This document shows positions 18,898-36,947 of a stretch of DNA of 36,947 bases, in pieces. Each line of letters starts with the position of its first letter. Positions within the stretch are counted from its first letter, which is position 1. Where the stretch lies: contig JAQTOP010000027.1 in the NCBI GenBank assembly GCA_028713285.1, positions 1 through 36,947 of the forward strand, given 5' to 3'. The DNA comes from Terrimicrobiaceae bacterium. GTDB taxonomy: Bacteria; Verrucomicrobiota; Verrucomicrobiia; Chthoniobacterales; JAATET01. The notes under the pieces are model-generated. The model searched no databases. It worked only from the letters and a program-made list of their open reading frames with translations, and had not been told where the DNA came from. Made by a program: the position numbers and the translations under genes.

Positions 18898-21800
18898 TCA
18901 GTTCGCGGGTATAACTTGGTTGAAGGCCAAAGTGACGACTTTGGAGCCTTGCGGAGTGATGAACTCGACTTCGCAAGCGCGGCCGTCTGCATGGAGATGA
19001 ACGACCGTTCCCCTGGCACCAGCAGTAACGCCTTCAGCGGGCAGCGTGGTCGTGAGCGAGACAATGTCGTGCTCCTTGATTGACGGTGCAGTGACGGTTG
19101 CCTGTGGCCGTCCGGCCTGCCAGAGCCGGTTCAAGCCGTCCACCCAAGTCACCAACGCAGTCCTCGCCTCGGTTGGATTCGTTAGCGGTGCTTCCTGATG
19201 CGCTACGCGTGTATTCCGGAAGTCGTTAATCGTTTTCACCCGGTCCAGCAGGTCGCGCCCTCCGGTGAATTTGAGTTCCGCCTTCACAGCTTCGAACACG
19301 CCAGCCAGCCGCGTGTTGTCGTTCAGTGCGTAGTCGAGGCAGTTGCGGAGCAAGCCGAGCGGAGAGACGCCGTTCTTGTAAACAAGAGTCTTCCGCAGAT
19401 TGCGCGCGACCTCCTCGTAGTGTCGGCGTTTCGTGTGTTCGACCGCCCCGAAGTGCGGTTCAAACCAATCGCGCTGGTCCTGCATGTTGGGCGGCATCTT
19501 TGGTGTGAGCTTTTGAAGCACCAAGCCCTTCGCCGTTTCGTCAATAACACCAAGCAGCGCGGTGAACACCGGCGCATAGTTCACGTCCTGCTTCTTCTCG
19601 AAGAAACCAAAAAGCGAAATTGATTCGTCAGCAGCTTTCCGCAAACGGTCCGGCAGATTGTTGAGAAGCTTTTGATCGACGACGCCCTGCGCCTCCGCTG
19701 CTTTCCCTTCGAGCATTCCGAGACCGGCAAACAGCGGCAACTCTTCGCGAAACTTCTCCTCGTTCAGCAGGTCATGCAGCGACGGCGCACACATCCGCGC
19801 GAGTTCCGCTACGGTGTTGCCTTGGAACCGCTGGAAGACGCCTTCCGGGACGAAGAGGTATTCCCACTTCACCTGCTTCGTGGATGCCGCCTTGCACCAC
19901 TCCACCGCCGCCCGCGCCTTCACCGGCACGTCCTTGTCCACCTGGCCTTTCGTCTCGACCAAGAAGTAATTTCCCGCCGCGGCGCGGACAAAGAAATCCG
20001 GCGTGTAGAACGCCAGTCGAACGCCATCGGCGAGGTAATCCACCCGCAGGCATTGCGGTCCCGCATTCTTCGCGAACGCCGCCACGTCCGATGCCTTTGC
20101 GCACAGTCCGACGAAAGCTGACTCCAGCGTCCGATTGCAAGGCACGAGGTTGAACACCGTCCGCTCCGATTGCTGGACCGGTCGCCGCTCGCTGACCGTC
20201 ACCTGGAAGGGGCGCCACGCCGCCACGGAAATCGGCGTAGCCTCCAACGTGCGCAACTGCTTCTGAATCGTTTTCCGGCGCACCAGCGGGACAAACACCG
20301 CCCGCACATGCTCGCGCACATCGCTGTCCGAGAGCCGCGCAACCAGCGAGGACTCAAAGACCGAGTGTCCCGGCCCGAACAGCATCTCTTCAAAAAACTT
20401 CTGCAACAGCGGAGCCAGCACCTGATGCGTGCTCTTCACCTTGCAGATATATTCCACTTCCTGCACGTAGAAGGAAATCGCCCCGACCCCCGACTCAAGC
20501 AGGGCAAGGTTGACCTTCATATGTTCAACGACTTCCCCGGTGATAAGATGCCGTCCCTCGTATTGAACTTCGTCCGGACCACGCTCTCCAATAGGTAGCG
20601 GCTTGAAGGTCTTGAATGCCTCCTGCAACTCCGCCTCCGTAATCGGTCCCAGCACGGGCAGCGTCTGGTTTGCCGCCGTCAGTCTCGGGATGGAGATGGC
20701 CAGCGCTTCGGCGTCCTTCTTTGGGTTGGGGTAGATGGATACGGTGGTCGTCGGCACCTTGTCCACGTCCACGATTTCGATCGGCAGTCCCTCTTGCGCG
20801 AGTTCATCCCGATACAATCGGGCAAACGCCTCATGCTCGATCACCGCGACAATCTCATTCGCCTGCCCCGGCGGCGTCATGCGGCGCAGGCCGCGCCCCA
20901 GCGTTTGCTCCGGCAAAATGCCCGCCTTCGAGCTGTAAGCCCGCAACGGAACAATCGTCGTCACGTTCTTCACGTCCCAGCCCTCGCGCAGCATCAGCAC
21001 GCTCACGATGCAGTAATACGGACTCTCGCCGGAATCCAACTCGCGACTCAGCTTGCGCAACGCCTTCAAGTCCTCGTCGCTGATGTCCTTCTCGCTCTCG
21101 ACGAATTCCTCCCGCGCATCCGCGCCTTTTCCGATCTTCTTGATCTTGCCCTTGAGGTTCGTGTGCAGGTTGATGGTGCGCCCGTTGACCTCCTTAAAAA
21201 TTGCATCGCCATTCAAACGAGCCGTGATTTCGTCCGCCGCCGCGGTGTTCTCGCACATGACGAAAAGCAGCGGCTTCTTTCCGCTCTTCAGCCACTCGTC
21301 GCGGCTTTTAAGCCAGCGCTCGTAGCCGAGCTTCAGGTGCATCTCGAATCGGTAGGCAGCGTTGTCCGTCGCCTGCTCCACGAGATGTCCCGCCCGTCCG
21401 ATGATGGGCGTCTTGACGATGCCCGCATCGACCGCCTCGCCCAGCGGCGTGTCACAGATGATGTGTTTGAAATAGTTCGCCTTGTTGTCCTTGGGCGTGG
21501 CGGAGAAATCGAGCTGCGCCACCAGCCCGCCCTGCGTGCGCTTGCGGATGGTGTCGTGTAGAAACGTGATGGCCTCATTCCAGGCCGAGTCCGGGTCCCA
21601 GACATGGTGCGCCTCGTCGTTCATCACCATCACTCGCGCATGACCGGTGATGCGTTCGCGCAGCGCCGCTCCGGTATCCAGCGCTTTCGACTTGCTCACG
21701 GACGGCCCGATCCAGTCGTGCATCTCGCCGCTCTCGCGTTTCCGGGAGTTGTCGAAGAGCCGGTGGATGTTCGTCAGGTAAAGCGTCCCGCCCGTGCTCG

Positions 21801-22515
21801 CCCCGCCCGCCTCATCCTGCAAAACCGTGGTCAGATTCCAATCCCCGCGCCATTCCACTGGGATGAGCGGGTCGGTGTCGAAGATGTCCGGCCCGCCCCC
21901 CGCCGGTTTGAAGTCCTCCTTCAGCCGCTCAAACACCGTCAGGTTCGGCGCGATGACGATGAAGTGCCGAGCCATCGGCGAATCACTCTCCCGCAGCGCG
22001 TGAAAATAGCTCCACACGATCGCCAGGCTCATCACCTTCGTCTTGCCGGAGCCGGTCGCCATCTTGAAGGCGTAGCGGCTCCACGCATCCTCCTCTTCCG
22101 TAACGCCCAGTGCCGTCGTCTCCGCGTAGGCGCCGCCATACTCCGCGATGAGCTGCGAGAGACATTCCAGCTTTCGGACTTCCTTGAGATAAATCAGCGT
22201 CTCAATCGCCTCCCGCTGACAGAAGTAATAGCGGAACTCGTGGGCTTCCCCGTTCGTGCCGACGGCGTGCGTCCGCCCGAACCAGTGATTGAGTAATTGC
22301 CGCGACGTGTCACTCGCGCCGAAGTAAAAATTTTCCCGCCACTCCTTCACCATCGCCCGCAGATTCTGCGCGATGGCGATGCGCGTCGGTCGCCGTCCCT
22401 TCCGCTCGACAGCGCCCCGGCCACCTTCCGCCCGCACGCGATGTTTGTCCGGCTCTTCCCACGCTGCGAACAATGGTTCCAGCGCCTCGGTCTTGATGGT
22501 CAGGTTCTCGGGCAT
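18898..22515 (-). CDS. res: Type III-like restriction helicase-nuclease (Res) with HEPN-like and DUF4926-like C-terminal regions
   Basis: A 1,205-residue DNA translocase/nuclease. Helicase motifs are Walker A A-T-G-S-G-K-T at 153-159, D-E-A-H at 300-303, S-A-T at 338-340 and Q-T-L-G-R-G-L-R-R at 537-545. A PD-(D/E)XK nuclease follows: P-D at 839-840 and E-T-K at 854-856. An additional helical region, about 960-1135, ends with F-R-N-T-R-V-A-H (Arg1100, His1106), resembling the R-N-x4-H signature of HEPN ribonucleases. Residues 1146-1205 match the small beta-barrel DUF4926 pattern (H-D-I-V-S-L-T-T-T-L-P, R-G-T-V-V). It lies 3 bases after the 80-residue gene and 2 bases before the DUF6883-like gene. 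Core call secure; the two extra regions are pattern-based. Confidence 0.9.
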   Translation of the reverse strand: MPENLTIKTEALEPLFAAWEEPDKHRVRAEGGRGAVERKGRRPTRIAIAQNLRAMVKEWRENFYFGASDTSRQLLNHWFGRTHAVGTNGEAHEFRYYFCQREAIETLIYLKEVRKLECLSQLIAEYGGAYAETTALGVTEEEDAWSRYAFKMATGSGKTKVMSLAIVWSYFHALRESDSPMARHFIVIAPNLTVFERLKEDFKPAGGGPDIFDTDPLIPVEWRGDWNLTTVLQDEAGGASTGGTLYLTNIHRLFDNSRKRESGEMHDWIGPSVSKSKALDTGAALRERITGHARVMVMNDEAHHVWDPDSAWNEAITFLHDTIRKRTQGGLVAQLDFSATPKDNKANYFKHIICDTPLGEAVDAGIVKTPIIGRAGHLVEQATDNAAYRFEMHLKLGYERWLKSRDEWLKSGKKPLLFVMCENTAAADEITARLNGDAIFKEVNGRTINLHTNLKGKIKKIGKGADAREEFVESEKDISDEDLKALRKLSRELDSGESPYYCIVSVLMLREGWDVKNVTTIVPLRAYSSKAGILPEQTLGRGLRRMTPPGQANEIVAVIEHEAFARLYRDELAQEGLPIEIVDVDKVPTTTVSIYPNPKKDAEALAISIPRLTAANQTLPVLGPITEAELQEAFKTFKPLPIGERGPDEVQYEGRHLITGEVVEHMKVNLALLESGVGAISFYVQEVEYICKVKSTHQVLAPLLQKFFEEMLFGPGHSVFESSLVARLSDSDVREHVRAVFVPLVRRKTIQKQLRTLEATPISVAAWRPFQVTVSERRPVQQSERTVFNLVPCNRTLESAFVGLCAKASDVAAFAKNAGPQCLRVDYLADGVRLAFYTPDFFVRAAAGNYFLVETKGQVDKDVPVKARAAVEWCKAASTKQVKWEYLFVPEGVFQRFQGNTVAELARMCAPSLHDLLNEEKFREELPLFAGLGMLEGKAAEAQGVVDQKLLNNLPDRLRKAADESISLFGFFEKKQDVNYAPVFTALLGVIDETAKGLVLQKLTPKMPPNMQDQRDWFEPHFGAVEHTKRRHYEEVARNLRKTLVYKNGVSPLGLLRNCLDYALNDNTRLAGVFEAVKAELKFTGGRDLLDRVKTINDFRNTRVAHQEAPLTNPTEARTALVTWVDGLNRLWQAGRPQATVTAPSIKEHDIVSLTTTLPAEGVTAGARGTVVHLHADGRACEVEFITPQGSKVVTLAFNQVIPAN

Positions 22516-22518
22516 GGG

Positions 22519-22761
22519 TCAATTCTTCGGTTTGGGGGTCCCATACGGGGGCGGTGTTTCGTTGAGTAGCAGCGACTCCATCGTCATCTGGAAGAGCCAC
22601 GGCTTCACCGTCCGTCCCCGCTGCCGCTGAATGGGAGCGGCGAGCGCCTGCAGGCGGACGAGCGCGGCGATCTTCTCGGGAAAGGAAGCGCGCGCCAGCC
22701 GTTGCCGGCGGTTTTCCTTGGCGGCGAACAGCCGCTGCATTTCAGGCGTCAGCTCGTCCAT
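22519..22761 (-). CDS. Small basic protein of 80 residues in the restriction operon
   Basis: Not a named family. It is basic and helical at the N-terminus: R-L-F-A-A-K-E-N-R-R-Q-R-L-A-R, then F-P-E-K-I-A-A-L-V-R-L-Q. The tail is proline-rich. A similar small protein with R-R-x-R-L-A and F-x-E-K-I is, to my recollection, common beside genes for minimal nucleotidyltransferases, consistent with a partner or antitoxin-like role. It overlaps the nucleotidyltransferase gene by 13 bases and ends 3 bases before res, so its expression is tied to both. Confidence 0.72.
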   Translation of the reverse strand: MDELTPEMQRLFAAKENRRQRLARASFPEKIAALVRLQALAAPIQRQRGRTVKPWLFQMTMESLLLNETPPPYGTPKPKN

Positions 22762-23246
22762 AGTTTCCAGCGGGTTTCGAGTTGATGTCGCTGCACGATG
22801 GAGTCCAGCTTCGCCCGGTCGAACTCAGCCTCGGCGAGGAAGGTGGAGAAACGCTGCCGGTCCTTGTCCCGGCCCGTTTGCAGCATGATGGCCGCGAGAT
22901 GCTCCGCCCGCAGCACCCGCGCGGGCGTCACCTCATAGCTCATGTCCACAGCTTCGGTCAGCGCCTCTTCCACCAGGGGATTGTAAGCCGGCAGAAACTG
23001 CACCGGCACTCCCTCGATGTTCACGCATTCACCCTCCTCTGCATAACCGCGCTGGCGCAATGCCTCATACACCGGCCCCAGCGTCAGCAGTCCGCCGCCG
23101 GTGACGGGCAGCACCACGAACACGTCCAGATCATAGGTCAGGAAGGGCTCCATATAGAAGATGGCCCCTACTGCGCCACCGATGGCGTAGCGCGTGATCA
23201 CACCCTCGCGCTCCAACTCGTTCAGGACTCTTAACGTGGCTTCCAT
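22749..23246 (-). CDS. Minimal nucleotidyltransferase-fold protein (MNT/AbiEii-like)
   Basis: A 165-residue polymerase-beta-fold nucleotidyltransferase. The G-G motif A-I-G-G-A-V-G-A-I-F is at 21-30 and the metal-binding D-x-D is Asp39/Asp41 in T-Y-D-L-D-V-F. The usual third acidic residue is not obvious: its position reads V-P-V-Q-F-L-P. Relatives act as antitoxins that nucleotidylate HEPN toxins, as AbiEii-type toxins, or as uncharacterised proteins. Here it lies between mod and res, three bases after mod and overlapping the 80-residue gene. Because Res carries a HEPN-like segment, a modifying or inhibitory role towards Res is an attractive inference. Confidence 0.8.
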   Translation of the reverse strand: MEATLRVLNELEREGVITRYAIGGAVGAIFYMEPFLTYDLDVFVVLPVTGGGLLTLGPVYEALRQRGYAEEGECVNIEGVPVQFLPAYNPLVEEALTEAVDMSYEVTPARVLRAEHLAAIMLQTGRDKDRQRFSTFLAEAEFDRAKLDSIVQRHQLETRWKLWTS

Positions 23247-23249
23247 AGT

Positions 23250-25205
23250 TCAGACAGTGACGTCAATTGTGATGCTCGTATCGCAGCCGAAGACATCCAC
23301 CACCTTCACGCAGATCGTGTGCTTCCCGCCTTTTTCGTAGGTGTGCCCGGCGTCGCTCACGGTCTTGAGCGAACGGTCTTTGCGGGTGCGGTAATCCTGC
23401 CAGTGATGGTTGAAGGGCTTGCCGGGATGCCAGTCGAAGTCCACCGCCCAGAAATCAATGAAATCGAAGCCGCTCTTGACCGCCCGCTCCTTCAACGCCT
23501 CCAGTTCCTTGCTCGGCACCTCGGCCAGCGAGGGGAGAAACTTCGTCAGCTTCACGTCCACGGACTTCGCGCTCTTCGCGGCTTCGCGTGAGGTGGATTT
23601 TCTGACCACCGCCTCCGCTTCCAGCACCGCCATTTCGAGGAACGGCGGCGGGCTCGTGCGGTTCTTCTCCATGATCTCGCGCGGGATCGGCACCAGCTTC
23701 ATCTTGATTTTGAACTCCGCCTCCAGCGCGAGACAGTGCGTGCGCAGCTCCATCTCGAATTCCCAGGCAAGGCAATAGACCTCGCGCCCGCCCGCCTGCA
23801 CCGCGGCCTCCGCCACGGCGCGGGCTTCGTTCCGGGTGAACAGCCCGTCAATGCCGTCCACATGGCAGAACGCGCCCGCCTTGCGCCCGTGCAGGAGCGG
23901 GTTGGGCGGGCTGCTCAGAACTTCCGCCTTGAAAAACTCCAGCACGACGCGGCGATGCTCGGCGTCCGCGCCCTTGAGCCGGTCCTTCTGCCACCACTGC
24001 CGCTCGTAACGACCTAGGTTGTAAACATCGAAAGCCCGATACGGCTTGCCCTCATCGTGCAGCTTGCGTTGCAGGTCGATGAGCCGCTTGCGGCTGGTGT
24101 GGATGGAGAAGCGCCCGAGATCGGCCATCAGCCACCGCCGCCCGAGCCGCTCCGCCACCGCCCCCGTCGTCCCGCTCCCGCAGAAAAAATCGGCCACAAG
24201 GTCGCCTTCGTCCGAACCCATTCTGAGGATTCGTTCCACAAAGTCTTCAGGCTTCTGAGTGTTGTAACCGAGCGTCTCTTCAATGTTCGCCGGTTGGAGA
24301 CAACGTATGCGCCAAACGTCATCAACTGTTCGGTCCTCGCTGATATATGTAACCGCTTTCCCATCTGGACCGATGATGTTTTGAATCTGTCCGTCAACTT
24401 TCCGGTATTTGAGTTTTTTGACGGGCTCATCACGTTTCTCTTTGGGGGCGTTGTGAACATGAGAACCGGGAACCTTAGCGTAGCGAAGAATGACGTCGTG
24501 AGCGCGGGGAAGAATCTTTTTCCGGCTGTCGTGAAGCTTGTTGTAGTAATACCAAACGATTTCGTTGAGGAAGTTTTCGGTCCCAAAGACCTCATTCAGC
24601 AAAATCCTGAGTTGTGCACTCATGTGCCAGTCGCAATGCACATAGATGCTCCCCTTGTCCGAAAGCAGTTCCTTCATCAGCGTCAAACGCTCAAACATCA
24701 TGTGAAGGTAGGAGTCGGTGCCTTTTCCCCACATGTCGCGGTAGGCGACCATTTCGAGGGTGGACTGGTCTTTGCCGACGGTCTCCTTCCAGTCGCCGAT
24801 GGGCACGTCCATCGTGAAATCCGCGCCCACGTCGAAGGGCGGGTCAATGTAGATGAGATCCACGCGGCCCTTGAACTCGGCCAGCAGGCTGGCGAGCACC
24901 AGCTTGTTGTCGCCCCAGATGAGCCGGTTGCGGAACGGCTCCCCGCCGTAGCGCGCGCTTTCCTCCTTCACGCGTCCGCTGACGCCTTGATCGAACAACT
25001 CGATCTGCCCCTCCGCCGCCGCCCGCTGTCGCGGCTCGTCCACCGTCTCAATCTTCTGCATCGGCATCGCGCAGGCCGCGACATCCACCTCGCGGCGATT
25101 GCCAAACTCGTCGTATTTCCCATCCCACACCAGCTCCGTGCGCATCTTGGAGAGCGGATGAGGATTCGCCGGTCCCCAATGAAAAGCGTTCTTTGACTCG
25201 TCCAT
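23250..25205 (-). CDS. mod: Type III-like DNA methyltransferase (Mod), beta class
   Basis: A 651-residue adenine or N4-cytosine DNA methylase and likely specificity subunit of the restriction system. Catalytic motif IV, D-P-P-F, is at 121-124 and the SAM-binding motif F-C-G-S-G-T-T is at 341-347, the IV-before-I order of beta-class methylases. Target recognition is expected between them, around 215-310; the DNA there (about 24280-24570) is visibly AT-richer, as is common for exchanged recognition domains. Residues 536-552 (T-S-R-E-A-A-K-S-A-K-S) come from an inserted short repeat. The C-terminal 60 residues form a beta-rich tail. It precedes the nucleotidyltransferase gene by 3 bases. Confidence 0.92.
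   Translation of the reverse strand: MDESKNAFHWGPANPHPLSKMRTELVWDGKYDEFGNRREVDVAACAMPMQKIETVDEPRQRAAAEGQIELFDQGVSGRVKEESARYGGEPFRNRLIWGDNKLVLASLLAEFKGRVDLIYIDPPFDVGADFTMDVPIGDWKETVGKDQSTLEMVAYRDMWGKGTDSYLHMMFERLTLMKELLSDKGSIYVHCDWHMSAQLRILLNEVFGTENFLNEIVWYYYNKLHDSRKKILPRAHDVILRYAKVPGSHVHNAPKEKRDEPVKKLKYRKVDGQIQNIIGPDGKAVTYISEDRTVDDVWRIRCLQPANIEETLGYNTQKPEDFVERILRMGSDEGDLVADFFCGSGTTGAVAERLGRRWLMADLGRFSIHTSRKRLIDLQRKLHDEGKPYRAFDVYNLGRYERQWWQKDRLKGADAEHRRVVLEFFKAEVLSSPPNPLLHGRKAGAFCHVDGIDGLFTRNEARAVAEAAVQAGGREVYCLAWEFEMELRTHCLALEAEFKIKMKLVPIPREIMEKNRTSPPPFLEMAVLEAEAVVRKSTSREAAKSAKSVDVKLTKFLPSLAEVPSKELEALKERAVKSGFDFIDFWAVDFDWHPGKPFNHHWQDYRTRKDRSLKTVSDAGHTYEKGGKHTICVKVVDVFGCDTSITIDVTV
23565..23588 (-). 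repeat. In-frame CGCGAAG repeat inside mod
   Basis: Three copies of CTTCGCG on the plus strand, at 23565-23571, 23574-23580 and 23582-23588, followed by TGAGG. Read in the mod direction they encode S-R-E-A-A-K-S-A-K. Repeats with the theme CGCGAAG are a familiar dispersed intergenic type in GC-rich genomes, so this looks like an in-frame insertion. Confidence 0.6.
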
Positions 25206-28636: not shown

Positions 28637-29251
28637 TCAATCTCGCGAAGGAACATTCAAAGCAAAAGGGTCGCCCGCCCCCGTGAAGAGTCGTATCGGT
28701 TCTTCCAATTCAACCTTGAAGACCGTTGCATCCGCATCGGAGGCGCCCTCGGGCGCGTCGATCCAGAGGACACCCGGCAGATTGGCCGGGGGAAAGCCTC
28801 CGAGAACCCTGTGTTTGACCTCGGGACCGCCCAGAATGCTGGTTCGCCGCACTTTGCTCAGCAAACCCTTCACCGCGACGGACTCGATCGGCCGATCGAA
28901 GGAAAAGAGATAGAGCACATCCCGCGTCTTGGTCAGGGTCGATGCGCCGTAGAAAAGACCGGGAGGAAGTGCCGCTTCCGTGCCGTAGATCGCTTCCCCG
29001 TGCTTTTTCATCCAGCGCCCGCCCCCTTTCAAGACCGCGACCTGCTCGGGCGGAATGGTTCCGTCGCTCATCGGGCCGACATCGAGCAGGAGGTTGCCTC
29101 CCATTCCCGCGCATTCGACCAGCATCCGGACGCACTGGCGGATGGTTTTGTAGTTGCGGTCGTTTTTTTGAGACCTCCCGATGGCGTCAACGGCCATGGA
29201 GCTTCGCAGTCCGTGAGTGGACATCGCCTGGGAAATCGGCGCGGGCATCAC
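28637..29251 (-). pseudogene. C-terminal remnant of an alpha-L-fucosidase (GH29)
   Basis: An open frame of 204 residues with G-G-N-L-L-L-D-V-G-P-M-S-D-G-T-I-P near residue 52-68, the hallmark of the end of the GH29 catalytic barrel, preceded by K-N-D-R-N-Y-K-T-I. The rest is the C-terminal beta domain. The N-terminal 300 or so residues with the nucleophile aspartate are missing: an in-frame stop lies about 17 codons upstream of the first GTG. It cannot be an active fucosidase, and is most simply read as a truncated gene. Its lost 5' end faces the lost 5' end of the next fragment. Confidence 0.75.
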
Positions 29252-31739: not shown

Positions 31740-32783
31740 ATGCTGAAGTCCGGTTCATCGTTTGCCCTGCTCGCGGCGGTGCTGTTCGGCGCGAGTACGC
31801 CCGCGGCAAAGCTCCTCCTCGATCATTGCGGCCCCGTCATGCTGGCGGGTCTGCTTTATCTCGGATCGGGCATCGGGCTCGCCGCCTTCCGGCTGGCATC
31901 CCGCGACCGGCGGGAGACCCGCGAGGCGCCCCTGTCGCGCCGTGATGCGCCCTGGCTGGCCGCCGCGATTGCGTGCGGAGGGATCGCTGCGCCGGTATTG
32001 CTTTTGCTTGGCCTGGGTGGAATCGCCGCATCGACCGGCGCGCTGCTGCTCAATCTGGAAGGCGTCTTCACCGCGCTGCTTGCCTGGTTTATTTTTCGCG
32101 AGAATTTCGACCGGCGCATTTTTGCCGGCATGGCCGCCATCACCCTGGGTGCGGCCGTGCTGGCGTGGCCGGCCCCCGGTGTCGAGGTCGCATGGCCCGC
32201 CCTGTTGATCGCAGGGGCCTGCGCCGCATGGGCGCTCGATAACAACCTGACGCGGAAGGTCTCGGCTGCAGATCCGGTGCAAATCACTTTCGTGAAGGGA
32301 CTGGTCGCGGGCGGCGTGAACCTCGCGCTGGCGCTGCTGATCGGCGAGAAGCTCCCGGGGGTTTCCGTCATCCTGCTTGCCCTGGCGCTGGGGCTCCTCA
32401 GCTACGGCATCAGCCTGACGTGCTTCGTGCAGGCGCTGCGACATATCGGGACGGCCCGCACGGGAGCCTATTTTTCCACGGCGCCGTTCGTCGGCGCGGC
32501 GATCTCCCTCGTGGTATTTCGCCAGCAGCCTTCATTGAGTTTCTGGCTGGCGGGCGCCTTGATGGCGTTCGGGGTCTGGATGCATCTCTCGGAGCATCAC
32601 GAGCACACCCACACCCACGAGGAACTGGCGCATGAGCACGAGCACGTCCATGATGCGCACCACCAGCACGCACACGGCGCCGGAGTCTCGCCGGGAGAGA
32701 CCCATACGCACTGGCACGTTCACGCCCGGCTCAGGCATCGGCACGAGCACTTTCCGGACATTCACCACCGGCATGGGCATTGA
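31740..32783 (+). CDS. DMT-superfamily (EamA) transporter with histidine-rich tail
   Basis: A 347-residue permease. Ten hydrophobic helices fill residues 5-281, as two EamA halves: L-L-N-L-E-G-V-F-T-A-L-L-A in the first and the G-T-A-R-T-G-A-Y-F-S-T-A-P-F motif in the second. The last 66 residues (from 282) hold 25 histidines, mostly as H-x-H or H-H pairs with Glu and Asp. Such tails are seen on a subgroup of these transporters and point to binding of Zn, Ni, Co or a similar metal, though the substrate is unknown. It is preceded by a near-leaderless promoter and stands alone. Confidence 0.88.
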   Translation: MLKSGSSFALLAAVLFGASTPAAKLLLDHCGPVMLAGLLYLGSGIGLAAFRLASRDRRETREAPLSRRDAPWLAAAIACGGIAAPVLLLLGLGGIAASTGALLLNLEGVFTALLAWFIFRENFDRRIFAGMAAITLGAAVLAWPAPGVEVAWPALLIAGACAAWALDNNLTRKVSAADPVQITFVKGLVAGGVNLALALLIGEKLPGVSVILLALALGLLSYGISLTCFVQALRHIGTARTGAYFSTAPFVGAAISLVVFRQQPSLSFWLAGALMAFGVWMHLSEHHEHTHTHEELAHEHEHVHDAHHQHAHGAGVSPGETHTHWHVHARLRHRHEHFPDIHHRHGH

Positions 32784-32806: not shown

Positions 32807-34330
32807 TCAGTGAGCCTTCGTCGCCGGATCGCTGAGATTCTCCACCGCGGGCAAACCGTAGGAACTGCGCAGTTGTCCGGCGGTTCTCCCGACCTCCGCC
32901 GCGTCCAGGTAGAGCACGCCGGGGTCCGCCTCCAACTCGATCTTGTGAAAACCGTTGAGGGGATGCTTCGCGGCTTCGGCGACATCCTCGAGGCTTCGGA
33001 TCGGGAGTCCGTTGATTCTCTCGACGACGTTCGCGCCGACGTCCTCGTAGCCGACGGTCGTGTCGGCCGGCAGCACCTGGCTGAGGAAGACGATCTTGCC
33101 GCGGTCGGAAGGCAACTCGTCCTGAAATTCGTCGAGATAAACCAGCCGGGCGGGCGCGTTATTGCGCCAATCGCCGCCCCATTCGCGCAGATAGGATCGC
33201 GAGAGTTCCTGGAAGACAAGGCCGCCCAAGATGTAATATCGCGGCGCGCGATCGACGATCGCCGATTCGCTGAGAATCGTGGAGGGATCGCGGGGCTCGA
33301 GGGGCAGAGTGAGGTCGATCACGCCGCCATTGCGCAGCACGCGGATGGGGAGTTCGCCGCCGGGAAGGCTGGCCGTGGAGACGAGGTAGCTGAAGGGGAT
33401 TTTCCCGTAGTCCGGGTGGGTGTAGTTGCCGTCCTCGTCGATGTCGCTGCCGTCCACGCGCATGACGACGTCACCTTTCTTCAGGCCGGATTTTTCGGCG
33501 GGGCTACCGTGCGCGACGGAGACCACATAGACGCCGGTCTGGCCGCCGGTCATCCCCAGGTAGCGGCGGAATTGAGGGTCGCGAGTGGGGGCGAATGCGA
33601 TGCCGGCGCGGGGGAAACCGGTGTAAGGCTGGCGGGCGGCGCGTGCGAGGAAACTGGAGATGACAGCTCCGGGAACGAGATCGGCTGACTGCGAGCGCGT
33701 GTCGTAACGCATGAGCAGGCCGGCCAGACGGTCGCCCGCGAAGACGGGCATGGTGAAGCTGTTGTCGCGATACTGGAGGGGTGCGGTGAGCCGGTAGGCG
33801 AGCAACGCGACGCCGTCGGCGGGGTAGGGGGCGACGGTGATGGTGGTGACGACACCGGGCGTGAGGGCGACCGCGCCGGTGTTCTCGAGTTGCACGACAT
33901 TGACTTCCGAGCCGACCTGCACGTCTTTCGCGAGCTGAACGGGGCGTGCGCCCGAAAGAAACTTCGGATCCTGCGGCTTGAGAATCGCGAGGTTCGATTC
34001 GTAATCGACGCGCTCCACCTCGGCGGCAATTTTTTCGGAACTCGCGGGGCGTTCGAGTTCGACATACGAGTGGTTCGCGATGAGTTCGGCGGTGACGAGC
34101 ACCCGGGCATTGTCGATCACGACGCCGATGCCCCGGCGGGTAAACGGCGGGCGCTTGCTCCACGGTTTCACGAAATTGAAGGCCTGGTTCGTCGAGTTCA
34201 CGCGCACGAGGGACGCGGCGACGGGGAGGGTGGCGGCGGGCTTGTTTGCAGGCTCCGACGGTGACTCGGCGCGGAGATTGCCGGTGACGGCGAGTGCGAC
34301 GGCAAAGAGGATGGTGCGAAACGGGGTCAT
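32807..34330 (-). CDS. Deg-like PDZ protein with a degenerate protease domain
   Basis: A 507-residue exported protein with a signal peptide (1-21), a trypsin-like fold (about 35-215), and one or two PDZ regions (G-V-Y-V-V-S-V-A-H-G-S-P-A-E-K-S-G-L-K-K-G-D at about 266-288, and a C-terminal one). Compared with the upstream paralogue, the catalytic histidine region T-N-A-H-V-V reads T-A-E-L-I-A (Leu83), the aspartate S-D-L-A-I-L reads S-N-L-A-I-L (Asn113), and G-N-S-G-G-P reads D-N-S-F-T-M-P. It is therefore probably not a protease but a regulatory or binding subunit. Its ATG overlaps the paralogue stop by four bases. Confidence 0.88.
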   Translation of the reverse strand: MTPFRTILFAVALAVTGNLRAESPSEPANKPAATLPVAASLVRVNSTNQAFNFVKPWSKRPPFTRRGIGVVIDNARVLVTAELIANHSYVELERPASSEKIAAEVERVDYESNLAILKPQDPKFLSGARPVQLAKDVQVGSEVNVVQLENTGAVALTPGVVTTITVAPYPADGVALLAYRLTAPLQYRDNSFTMPVFAGDRLAGLLMRYDTRSQSADLVPGAVISSFLARAARQPYTGFPRAGIAFAPTRDPQFRRYLGMTGGQTGVYVVSVAHGSPAEKSGLKKGDVVMRVDGSDIDEDGNYTHPDYGKIPFSYLVSTASLPGGELPIRVLRNGGVIDLTLPLEPRDPSTILSESAIVDRAPRYYILGGLVFQELSRSYLREWGGDWRNNAPARLVYLDEFQDELPSDRGKIVFLSQVLPADTTVGYEDVGANVVERINGLPIRSLEDVAEAAKHPLNGFHKIELEADPGVLYLDAAEVGRTAGQLRSSYGLPAVENLSDPATKAH

Positions 34331-35781
34331 GGCTTCAGATTCGATTCGCTGCCCACGCCGTAGCGGCTAAGAATGCGGGAGCGCGCGGCGGCGACGGCCT
34401 TCGCCTCCAGCACGAGCGGGCGGCTGGCGCCGACGAACTCGATCACATAGGTCTCGGCGGGGCTGGCGAAGGCGGCGGCGACGTCGTCGAGCGTCTTGAT
34501 TTTTTGTCCATTGATCGTATCGACCATCGCCTGCCGGAACTCGTCGGCATAGGCGTTCACCGGATCGGAGAGGACGTTGCTCAGGATGACGATCTCGGGG
34601 CGTTCCTTGTAGAGATTGTCCTCAAGGAAGTGGTCGAAATAGTAGCGGGTGCGCGAGTTCTTGAGCGGCGTGTCGTTTACGAAGTTCTGGTCCAGCGGTT
34701 GGAACAGGAGGCCGCCGAAGAGCACGTAGCGCGGCTTCACGTCGTAGGCGTTTGCGAAGAGGTTGAATGGAAACGGCTCGGTGAGCGGAACGACGAGCTT
34801 GAGCGGTTTTCCGTCGCGGATGATTTTGAGCGTGGCCTTTTCGCCTTTGAATTTCCGCTCGATCACCTCCGCCAGCTCGACATCGCTTCCATCGATCTGG
34901 ACGGAGCCATCGCTCGCGACGGCATGCCCGTCGATGGCGAGAATCACGTCGCCCGGCTTTACGATGCCTGCCGAGGAGCCGCCGCCAAAGACCGTGCTGA
35001 CGGTTACGCCCTGGCCGTCGTCCGGCAGGCCGAGCGCGTGCCGGGCGGCGGGGTTGTAGAGCGGAAACCAGGTGAGGGCGAGATCGACGTAGTGGTCGTA
35101 ATGGCCGTCCTCGATGTCCTTGAGGAAGCGTTTGATGACGGACGTGGGGATCATGTAGCCGGTGTTCTGCGCGACGTCGCCGCTGTAGCCCTGGAAGGCG
35201 ACGCCCACGACGGCGCCGTCCTGCACGACGGGGCCGCCGCTGTTGCCGGGATTGATCGCGGCGTCGATCTGGATGACGAGATGCGAATCGGCGCCGGAGT
35301 GGCTGTAGTCCTGGAAATCGACCCGGGAGACGATGCCCCGCGTGACGGAGGCACGGTCGCCGCCGATCGGGTAGCCATAGACCATCACGGTCGATTCGAT
35401 CTCGGGGATGCCGTTGAACTCCAGAGGCCGCATGGACTTGAAGAAATCGAGGTTCAGCGGCTGGAGGATGGCGAGGTCGGAGTCGTGGGCGATGAACTTG
35501 ATCTTTGCCGCGTAGCGGTTCGGGTCGCCCTCGCGTGTAATCCAGATCATGCGCGCGTTGCTGACGACGTGGGCGTTCGTCAGGATGCGGTCGCCTGCGA
35601 TGACGAATCCCGCGCCGATGCCCTGGCCGATGACGCCGGTGTTCCAGGGCGTCGTGTAGTCGGGATCCTGCGAGACGGTCTGGATGCGGACGAGCGACTT
35701 GCGGATGAGATCGGGCGACGCGATACCGACGATGGGCGACAGCAGGGCGAGCAGGAGCAATGGGCGCAGGAAATGACTCAT
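34327..35781 (-). CDS. Deg/HtrA-like serine protease with PDZ domains (Deg9-like)
   Basis: A 484-residue exported serine protease. A signal peptide covers residues 1-22. The catalytic triad is intact: His71 (T-N-A-H-V-V), Asp102 (H-D-S-D-L-A-I-L) and Ser181 (G-N-S-G-G-P). A PDZ domain follows (A-G-I-V-K-P-G-D-V-I-L-A-I-D-G near 273-287). The C-terminal region, with P-R-Y-V-L-F-G-G-L-L-F-Q-P-L, is typical of plant Deg9/Deg10-like proteases and of bacterial relatives. It leads a two-gene unit with its degenerate paralogue, so a mixed oligomer is likely. Probably degrades or guards misfolded envelope proteins. Confidence 0.92.
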   Translation of the reverse strand: MSHFLRPLLLLALLSPIVGIASPDLIRKSLVRIQTVSQDPDYTTPWNTGVIGQGIGAGFVIAGDRILTNAHVVSNARMIWITREGDPNRYAAKIKFIAHDSDLAILQPLNLDFFKSMRPLEFNGIPEIESTVMVYGYPIGGDRASVTRGIVSRVDFQDYSHSGADSHLVIQIDAAINPGNSGGPVVQDGAVVGVAFQGYSGDVAQNTGYMIPTSVIKRFLKDIEDGHYDHYVDLALTWFPLYNPAARHALGLPDDGQGVTVSTVFGGGSSAGIVKPGDVILAIDGHAVASDGSVQIDGSDVELAEVIERKFKGEKATLKIIRDGKPLKLVVPLTEPFPFNLFANAYDVKPRYVLFGGLLFQPLDQNFVNDTPLKNSRTRYYFDHFLEDNLYKERPEIVILSNVLSDPVNAYADEFRQAMVDTINGQKIKTLDDVAAAFASPAETYVIEFVGASRPLVLEAKAVAAARSRILSRYGVGSESNLKP

Positions 35782-35831: not shown

Positions 35832-36596
35832 TTAGAACGAGTCGAGCCCGCCGAACCGATCGACGCGGAACGTATTGCTGCGCTGCTTCTTCGCGGCTTC
35901 CTGCACCGGATCACGCTCGGGGCGAGTGGGGCGTCCCGCTCCGAGGTTCGCGCTGCCTCCGCTCGGCGGGCCGAAGAAGCGGGGGTCATTGAAAGTGTTG
36001 ATCGCGATGAGCGCGCTGCGGCCCCCGCCCGCGAGTCTGCGGCGCGGGTTGATGAAGTCGGAGGGCGCGTAGTAGTTCGTGAAATCGTGGCGGAAGCCCG
36101 TCCGCGTCACCCCCATGGAGATGTTCTTGTGAATCTCGAAGTGCAGATGGGCGGGATACATGCCGCGATTCGTGCCCATCGTGCCAACCTGCTGTCCGCG
36201 AAGAACCTGCTGGCCTTCCTTGACAACGATGCGGTCGAGGTGGCCATAGAGTGAATCGACCGTCTTGAGGTCGCCACCCTCGAAGTAGATGTGGCGGATG
36301 ACGATGACGTTGCCCCAGCCGAGGCGGACGTCGCGAGCGAAGACGACGAGGCCGTTCGCGGTCGAGTAAATGGGGGAGCCGAGGTCGGTGTTGCCGCCGC
36401 CGATGCCGTTCCAATCCTCACCCAGGTGTCCGTTGGGCCGGAAGCCGCGCGCCTTGTAGTAGCCGTCGGCGTTCGGCTTGCCGACCGGGAAATCGAAGCC
36501 GTCGGCCACGCGGGTGCGGGCGACATTCGGATCGGGCGCGCCGACCAGCGTCGCGACTCCGACGCTGAGGGCGAGCCAGAACCAGGATTTGCGCAT
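35832..36596 (-). CDS. M23 family metallopeptidase (LytM-like), exported
   Basis: A 254-residue protein with an N-terminal signal peptide (1-19). The zinc motifs of M23 peptidoglycan endopeptidases are present: H-x-G-x-D at 57-61 (G-H-L-G-E-D) and H-x-H at 150-152 (A-H-L-H-F-E-I), plus Y-G-H-L near 118-121. The G-W-G-N-V-I-V-I-R-H strand typical of the fold precedes them. It likely cleaves peptide cross-links during wall growth or remodelling. The C-terminal 80 residues are Gly/Pro-rich and probably disordered. ATG at 36596 begins the signal peptide; 50 bases separate its stop from the Deg-like protease start. Confidence 0.9.
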   Translation of the reverse strand: MRKSWFWLALSVGVATLVGAPDPNVARTRVADGFDFPVGKPNADGYYKARGFRPNGHLGEDWNGIGGGNTDLGSPIYSTANGLVVFARDVRLGWGNVIVIRHIYFEGGDLKTVDSLYGHLDRIVVKEGQQVLRGQQVGTMGTNRGMYPAHLHFEIHKNISMGVTRTGFRHDFTNYYAPSDFINPRRRLAGGGRSALIAINTFNDPRFFGPPSGGSANLGAGRPTRPERDPVQEAAKKQRSNTFRVDRFGGLDSF

Positions 36597-36648
36597 AGCC
36601 CGCCAGCCTAAACGCAGGTGGATTGGCGCGCAAGTTTTTGGCCGGGGG

Positions 36649-36665
36649 CTGTCGGTCCTCGACAG
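36649..36665 (-). terminator. Hairpin after the partial gene, possible terminator
   Basis: CTGTCG at 36649-36654 and CGACAG at 36660-36665 form a perfect 6-base stem with a 5-base loop, four bases downstream of the stop of the partial minus-strand gene. No T-tract follows, so the call is weak. Confidence 0.3.
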
Positions 36666-36669
36666 TCTC

Positions 36670-36947
36670 TCATGCCGTCGGGTTGCCCTGCGGAGAAATC
36701 TGGACGACGGGCAGCGGGAAGCGCAGTTGCAACTCGTCATCGAGATGAATTTCGATGTGATGCAGGCCGAAGTGGTCGAACTTCACGCCGCCAAAGACAT
36801 GGACATTCGTCGCGTGCGACTCGAACTCATTCAGTCTGAATTCGACGCGGGATTCCGCGAGGATTTGCTCGTTTTCGGACGAAATAATGAGCGAGCGTTG
36901 AATGAACGTGCCCTCGCCGCCGCACCAGCGCGACCACAGGCAGAGCT
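36670..36947 (-). CDS. C-terminal part of a protein of unknown function (runs off the window)
   Basis: An open frame enters from beyond 36947 and ends at the TGA at 36670-36672. The visible 91 residues are beta-rich, with S-R-V-E-F-R-L-N-E-F-E, N-V-H-V-F-G-G-V-K-F, H-H-I-E-I-H-L-D-D-E-L and a final F-P-L-P-V-V-Q-I. The pattern of a beta-sandwich that carries a residue before a closing Pro-Leu-Pro strand resembles DUF6941-type proteins, but the match is weak and only from memory. The upstream part and its start are outside the window. Confidence 0.6.
   Translation of the reverse strand, partial: LCLWSRWCGGEGTFIQRSLIISSENEQILAESRVEFRLNEFESHATNVHVFGGVKFDHFGLHHIEIHLDDELQLRFPLPVVQISPQGNPTA

Follow-up and report, generated by a model that had tools for sequence, protein, structure and literature searches.

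The locus described here raises the question of why a bacterium should carry, directly behind the gene of a Deg-like serine protease, a second gene of the same layout whose product has no catalytic triad. It lies on a contig of a Terrimicrobiaceae bacterium (JAQTOP010000027.1), which was analysed over its whole length of 36,947 nucleotides (the window). The upstream gene is called A and the downstream gene P in the following; both are on the minus strand of the window.

Layout and active sites of the gene pair

Gene A (34327–35781, minus strand) encodes a Deg2/Deg9-type serine protease of 484 aa with the intact triad His71, Asp102 and Ser181, followed by a PDZ and a PDZ_3 domain. Gene P (32807–34330, minus strand) encodes a pseudoprotease of the same fold with 507 aa, which carries Glu82, Asn113 and Phe192 at the triad positions and likewise has PDZ and PDZ_3. 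The four-base overlap mentioned in the initial annotation is an ATGA at positions 34327–34330 (minus strand), in which the stop codon of A overlaps the start codon of P. A shared layout of signal, protease-like domain and PDZ had also been claimed there and is well supported: A and P are homologous over their full length (26% identity in 469 aligned columns, E = 5e-40) and both contain PDZ and PDZ_3, the signal peptides of both being called by eye from their hydrophobic N-termini. Pfam assigned Trypsin_2, PDZ_2 and PDZ_3 to A, and PDZ_2, PDZ and PDZ_3 to P, where Trypsin_2 stayed below the cut-off of 27.6 bits with a score of 20.0 (A: 85.7 bits). The PDZ_3 domain (PF17815) was located by profile match at 34345–34752 in A and at 32849–33259 in P (both minus strand), with a score of 93.5 bits in the latter. 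For both proteins, the closest solved sequences are plant Deg2 and Deg9, while neither A (124.7 bits) nor P (39.1 bits) reached the NCBIfam cut-off of 416.2 bits for the Do family (TIGR02037). Within the genome of the window, A and P are the only two matches to PF17815, a domain absent from all 14 control genomes; Trypsin_2 gave six matches there, including the one below cut-off in P.

The catalytic Ser181 of A, whose codon was placed at 35239–35241 (minus strand) by alignment position and sequence, lies in a GNSGGP motif, and His71 and Asp102 are in place as well. Based on the intact triad, this motif and the fold, A, in which PDZ and PDZ_3 are also found, is predicted to be a working Deg2/Deg9-type HtrA protease. 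P of the window lacks both the triad and the GNSGGP of this protease type: it reads DNSFTMP where A has GNSGGP, and Phe192 (codon 33755–33757, minus strand, from the alignment) is aligned to the catalytic Ser. The loss of His, Asp and GNSGGP from the second copy had been recognized before and is seen residue by residue.

To see how far this loss is shared, 49 sequences each of A and P from the order of the window were aligned jointly, the P set being picked by similarity to the window's P, independent of the triad. TNAH, the Asp and GNSGGP were kept by A in 49/49, and P had lost His in 48/48 and Ser in 49/49. The His column of P contains Glu (33), Asp (9), Gln (3), Ser (2), Gly (1) and one gap, the Asp column Asn (46) and Asp (3), and the Ser column, where Ser never occurs, Phe (39), Tyr (7) and another residue in three sequences. 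In A, the residue preceding the catalytic Asp is Cys in 47 of the 49; the two exceptions, one of them the window, have Ser. Among the dead rows of the phylum, the His letter survives in two (L229 and L240) and a Ser letter, there without GNSGGP, in one (G158). A Pfam trypsin match does not equal activity, as illustrated by P of Akkermansia muciniphila, which scores 44 bits on Trypsin_2, above the cut-off, despite Asn-Asn-Ala at the triad positions. Alignments A1 and A2 comprise 25 of the 49 order P and 25 of the 49 order A, respectively; to the window, A3 adds 47 of the 78 P of the named set of relatives and A4 adds 42 of the 74 A of that set.

Distribution, gene order and ancestry in Verrucomicrobiota

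At the level of the order, 57 genomes were searched (the window's own and relatives) and matches were obtained in 54. The tally over the 57 comprises 48 genomes with A and P, seven with neither, one with A only (G012) and one with P only (G045), where a 3.6-kb contig has P at its edge (genome completeness 89%) and no A was found. The named loci come from the best 80 of 435 relatives, and those listed by title all belong to Verrucomicrobiota. A profile search of 288 genomes of the phylum yielded 112 genomes matching with E ≤ 1e-20, of which 109 were classified (G264, G296 and G335 were left out): 69 carry A and P (in G135, A was counted from a profile match on another contig), 34 carry A without P, six have a distant paralogue only, and none has P without A. 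For five of the 34 A-only genomes (G184, G194, G218, G257 and G317), A lies no more than 400 bases from the contig end on the side of P. Rows of the phylum sample were labelled by their triad and the labels compared with HMM scores; class and triad state agreed in 105/105 rows and in 54/55 of a further set, where the discordant row (L289:153-1562) is a conventional HtrA that had been wrongly filed as P. The pair is also present in A. muciniphila, and in group g32, taken as Akkermansia, A has His-Asp-Ser and P Asn-Asn-Ala. The distant paralogue of the six paralogue-only genomes retains the His and GNSGGP motifs. A distant third paralogue with PDZ_3, its motifs looking active, occurs in some genomes of the order (L081:4788-6662, L083:4583-6304, L084:3607-5469) and, at L263-L268, in six f17 genomes where neither A nor P was found.

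A tandem arrangement was found at 105 loci, 45 in the order and 60 beyond it from 19 families, and in all 105 the two genes share a strand and A precedes P. The spacing is -4 in 28 loci, -1 in nine, 0 to 61 in 42 and over 61 in four; since start codons were set mechanically as the first start after a stop, the longer overlaps (more than four bases) of the remaining 22 are not trusted. The named set, which overlaps the 105, gave 73 same-strand pairs with a spacing mostly from -4 to +5. A wider conserved operon, including the M23 peptidase upstream in the window (35832–36740), was considered and rejected, because no other neighbour cluster occurs at more than 15 of the 105 loci, a count that includes the misfiled L289 and some loci with short flanks, and which lacks the pair of L068, too far apart at 2.5 kb for the distance rule. 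A and P are unlinked, and both still present, in G266, G294, G305 and G006 (G038, with both genes at contig ends, was excluded from these cases).

Phylogenetic analysis placed P apart from all other sequences. FastTree separated 97 P from 107 others among 204 rows (four partial rows of 208 omitted), none misplaced, with a support of 1.0, and an IQ-TREE analysis under a mixture model, with the active-site columns removed, recovered P as one clade with 100/99 (76 of the 208 rows). The A and P subtrees contain like family groups, and the A-only families group together on the A side. These trees fit one duplication, one inactivation and inheritance as a pair, with the fast P branches carrying a risk of long-branch effects. 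The comparison across the phylum suggested in the initial annotation thus found the loss in every classified downstream copy, with a single origin on the trees. The outcome that would have spoken for recent decay, namely intact triads in the relatives, is excluded by the conserved loss, with A intact in 49/49.

Sequence conservation differs between the two proteins. In A, mean pairwise identity is much higher in the protease domain (0.73) than in the PDZ domains (0.55 and 0.54), whereas the dead domain of P (0.55) is level with its PDZ1 (0.48) and PDZ_3 (0.56). Raw pN/pS within genus ranged from 0.27 to 0.58 for P and from 0.22 to 0.46 for A, with synonymous sites near saturation and six non-independent comparisons each. 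Judged from these values, P, including its dead domain, is under purifying selection. Could P nevertheless be a recently decayed copy that is being lost? It evolves somewhat faster than A, but its single inactivation is older than the families sampled, its reading frame is open in every tandem, and selection still acts on the dead domain; this explanation was rejected on the loss being conserved across families, and we give it practically no credence. Conserved loss, fixed gene order, a single clade, the absence of P-only genomes among those classified in the phylum and a full predicted fold together indicate that P is a pseudoprotease of ancient origin, retained and tied to A.

The pair in Leptospira

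Outside the phylum, P was searched by tblastn in plasmid records only, which gave three matching records, two of L. interrogans and one of Sulfurovum mangrovi. The Leptospira record encodes a protein annotated as an S1C family serine protease, with a His-Asp-Ser triad, and 14 bases downstream a protein annotated as PDZ domain-containing, in which the triad columns read Ser-Asn-Phe. A second tree without active-site columns, calculated from 77 rows including Leptospira and Sulfurovum (the two longest branches, L254:5822-7327 and L198:4357-5949, omitted), again gave a P clade with 100/100. The PDZ-annotated Leptospira protein falls inside the P clade (100/100) and the S1C protease inside a clade of 31 paired A (98/94), while the lone A of Sulfurovum groups with the A-only families (100/97).

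LIC20142 (adenine phosphoribosyltransferase), LIC20143 and LIC20144 have been described as one operon (PMC7709667), an arrangement found likewise in the Leptospira plasmid record, and the residues Asp124 and Ser203 given for LIC20143 in that paper match the Leptospira A protein. LIC20143 and LIC20144 represent the same pair, with the dead copy in the P clade and the same order as in the window. In print, LIC20144 is a PDZ-only protein (PMC7709667), whereas its sequence identifies it here as a full-length pseudoprotease, which corrects this label; in the passages of PMC7709667 considered, LIC20144 is not presented as a dead protease, and the words “pseudo” and “inactive” do not occur. For LIC11112, a triad of His77, Asp108 and Ser188 was reported, as well as a stop codon in contact with the LIC11111 start codon (PMC7709667). 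Its triad spacing of 31 and 80 is close to that of A in the window (31 and 79), and together with the contact of stop and start codon, these published numbers suggest that LIC11112 and LIC11111 may be a second active/dead pair.

Possible roles of the dead copy

The AF2 model of P (pLDDT 87.8, pTM 0.84) best matches Deg2/Deg9, with Z = 39.9 to 5ilb_A and an rmsd of 2.3 over 458 aligned residues, compared with a Z of about 26 for DegP; the model of A (pLDDT 86.5) reaches Z = 38.1 to Deg9. P thus models as a complete Deg9-like fold, in which the protease-like domain, PDZ and PDZ_3 are arranged as in Deg2/Deg9. Columns 146 and 150, which align, in an approximate register, to trimer contacts of Deg5/Deg8, are hydrophobic in A and mostly not in P. 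The N-terminal Pro-Trp is kept in both, in P in 113 and 112 of 115 rows, a set that includes the misfiled L289 and two partial rows. The lost hydrophobic strand face in P speaks, though weakly, against a simple ring shared with A. An observation on the N-terminus concerns P of L075 (4719-6251, minus strand), whose lipobox-like LVTAC hints that some P may be lipoproteins.

HtrA/Deg proteases are usually regarded as self-regulating homo-oligomers. The pairing of live and dead subunits has a parallel in ClpP/ClpR, and yeast Ynm3/Nma111 unites an active and a degenerate Deg protease domain in a single chain. Plant Deg7 likewise combines an active with a degenerate Deg protease domain, the inactive one being involved in trimerization (PMC3473262); its domains are fused in one chain, unlike the two ORFs of A and P overlapping by ATGA. 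HtrA proteins act as trimers (PMC3640471), and plant Deg5/Deg8 form hetero-oligomers of homotrimers (PMC4877387), so that two Deg paralogues share one hetero-oligomer in a way similar to the assembly proposed here for A and P. Both Deg5 and Deg8, however, have a His-Asp-Ser triad, unlike P, and Deg5 has no PDZ domain (PMC3640471, PMC4877387). MamE and MamO of magnetotactic bacteria are an active HtrA with a degenerate HtrA partner as in A/P, where MamO promotes MamE-dependent proteolysis; this type of pairing arose in three taxa (PMC4794232). MamO differs from P, which has PDZ and PDZ_3, in its TauE domain, its di-histidine metal site and its part in magnetite formation (PMC4794232); Pfam gave no TauE match in P of the window. 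Paired active and dead HtrA proteins are therefore already known, and the A/P pair is spread more widely than the published cases we found. In the open-licence literature of PubMed Central, nothing was found that names this pair as active and dead.

Because an active and a dead copy recur together across the phylum and in Leptospira, the dead copy probably assists or regulates its live partner. We lean towards the reading that A and P form one exported Deg2/Deg9-type machine, in which P, itself dead, is a non-catalytic helper of A. The two would be parts of one exported, ATP-independent quality-control protease for proteins, going back to one ancient duplication followed by a permanent loss of catalysis in the downstream copy. 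A and P would be co-translated and assembled, the PDZ domains of P might bind substrate or a signal for A, and P may set the assembly or activity of A. The mixed oligomer put forward in the initial annotation, in which P binds substrate or controls A, is plausible by analogy. P could sit either inside the trimer of A or in a ring of its own stacked on that of A, the latter being weakly favoured by the lost hydrophobic strand face.

The main competing explanation, which we regard as possible but rather unlikely, is that P acts independently, for example as a periplasmic chaperone or as a PDZ scaffold for peptides or envelope proteins, and shares only an operon and a stress programme with A. The seeming loss of the trimer-contact columns and the full fold with PDZ domains would agree with this, as would the 34 phylum genomes that have A without P; together with G012 and Sulfurovum, these genomes mean that A can work alone. 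Against independence stands that the reverse was never seen in the 109 classified genomes, even where the genes are unlinked, and that P has retained the whole dead protease domain beyond its PDZ domains. A new catalytic or metal-binding activity of P at or near the old active site is improbable. The residues there do follow a conserved pattern within the order (acidic at the His place in 42/48, Asn in 46/49, aromatic in 46/49), but they differ elsewhere, for example Asn-Asn-Ala in most rows of the Akkermansia group, so that no shared ligand is visible at this site across lineages; moreover, the His before the Asp place, one of the two metal-ligand positions of MamO, is missing in 49/49 P of the order.

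Returning to P as a helper of A, we see about an even chance that many Verrucomicrobiota, including Akkermansia, and Leptospira possess an envelope protease in which an inherited dead Deg, as the second subunit, takes up substrate or signal and gates the live subunit, as a two-gene counterpart of MamE/MamO or ClpP/ClpR. If this is true, proteins now labelled as PDZ domain-containing or trypsin-like peptidase would be regulatory subunits, and the A/P arrangement would either be older than the divergence of the phyla or have spread en bloc. With the pairing found throughout a phylum, in a cultured gut species and also in a spirochaete, active/inactive Deg pairs become testable outside magnetosomes.

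Three further features of the window were observed apart from the pair. An EamA transporter (31740–32783, plus strand) has a long, His-rich C-terminal tail, possibly metal-binding. Positions 28637–29251 (minus strand) hold a remnant of an alpha-L-fucosidase, the match being confined to profile positions 287–345 of 345. At 18898–25205 (minus strand), two proteins look like a restriction-modification system: one of 1205 aa matches ResIII, and another of 651 aa, encoded on the same strand, matches N6_N4 methylase.
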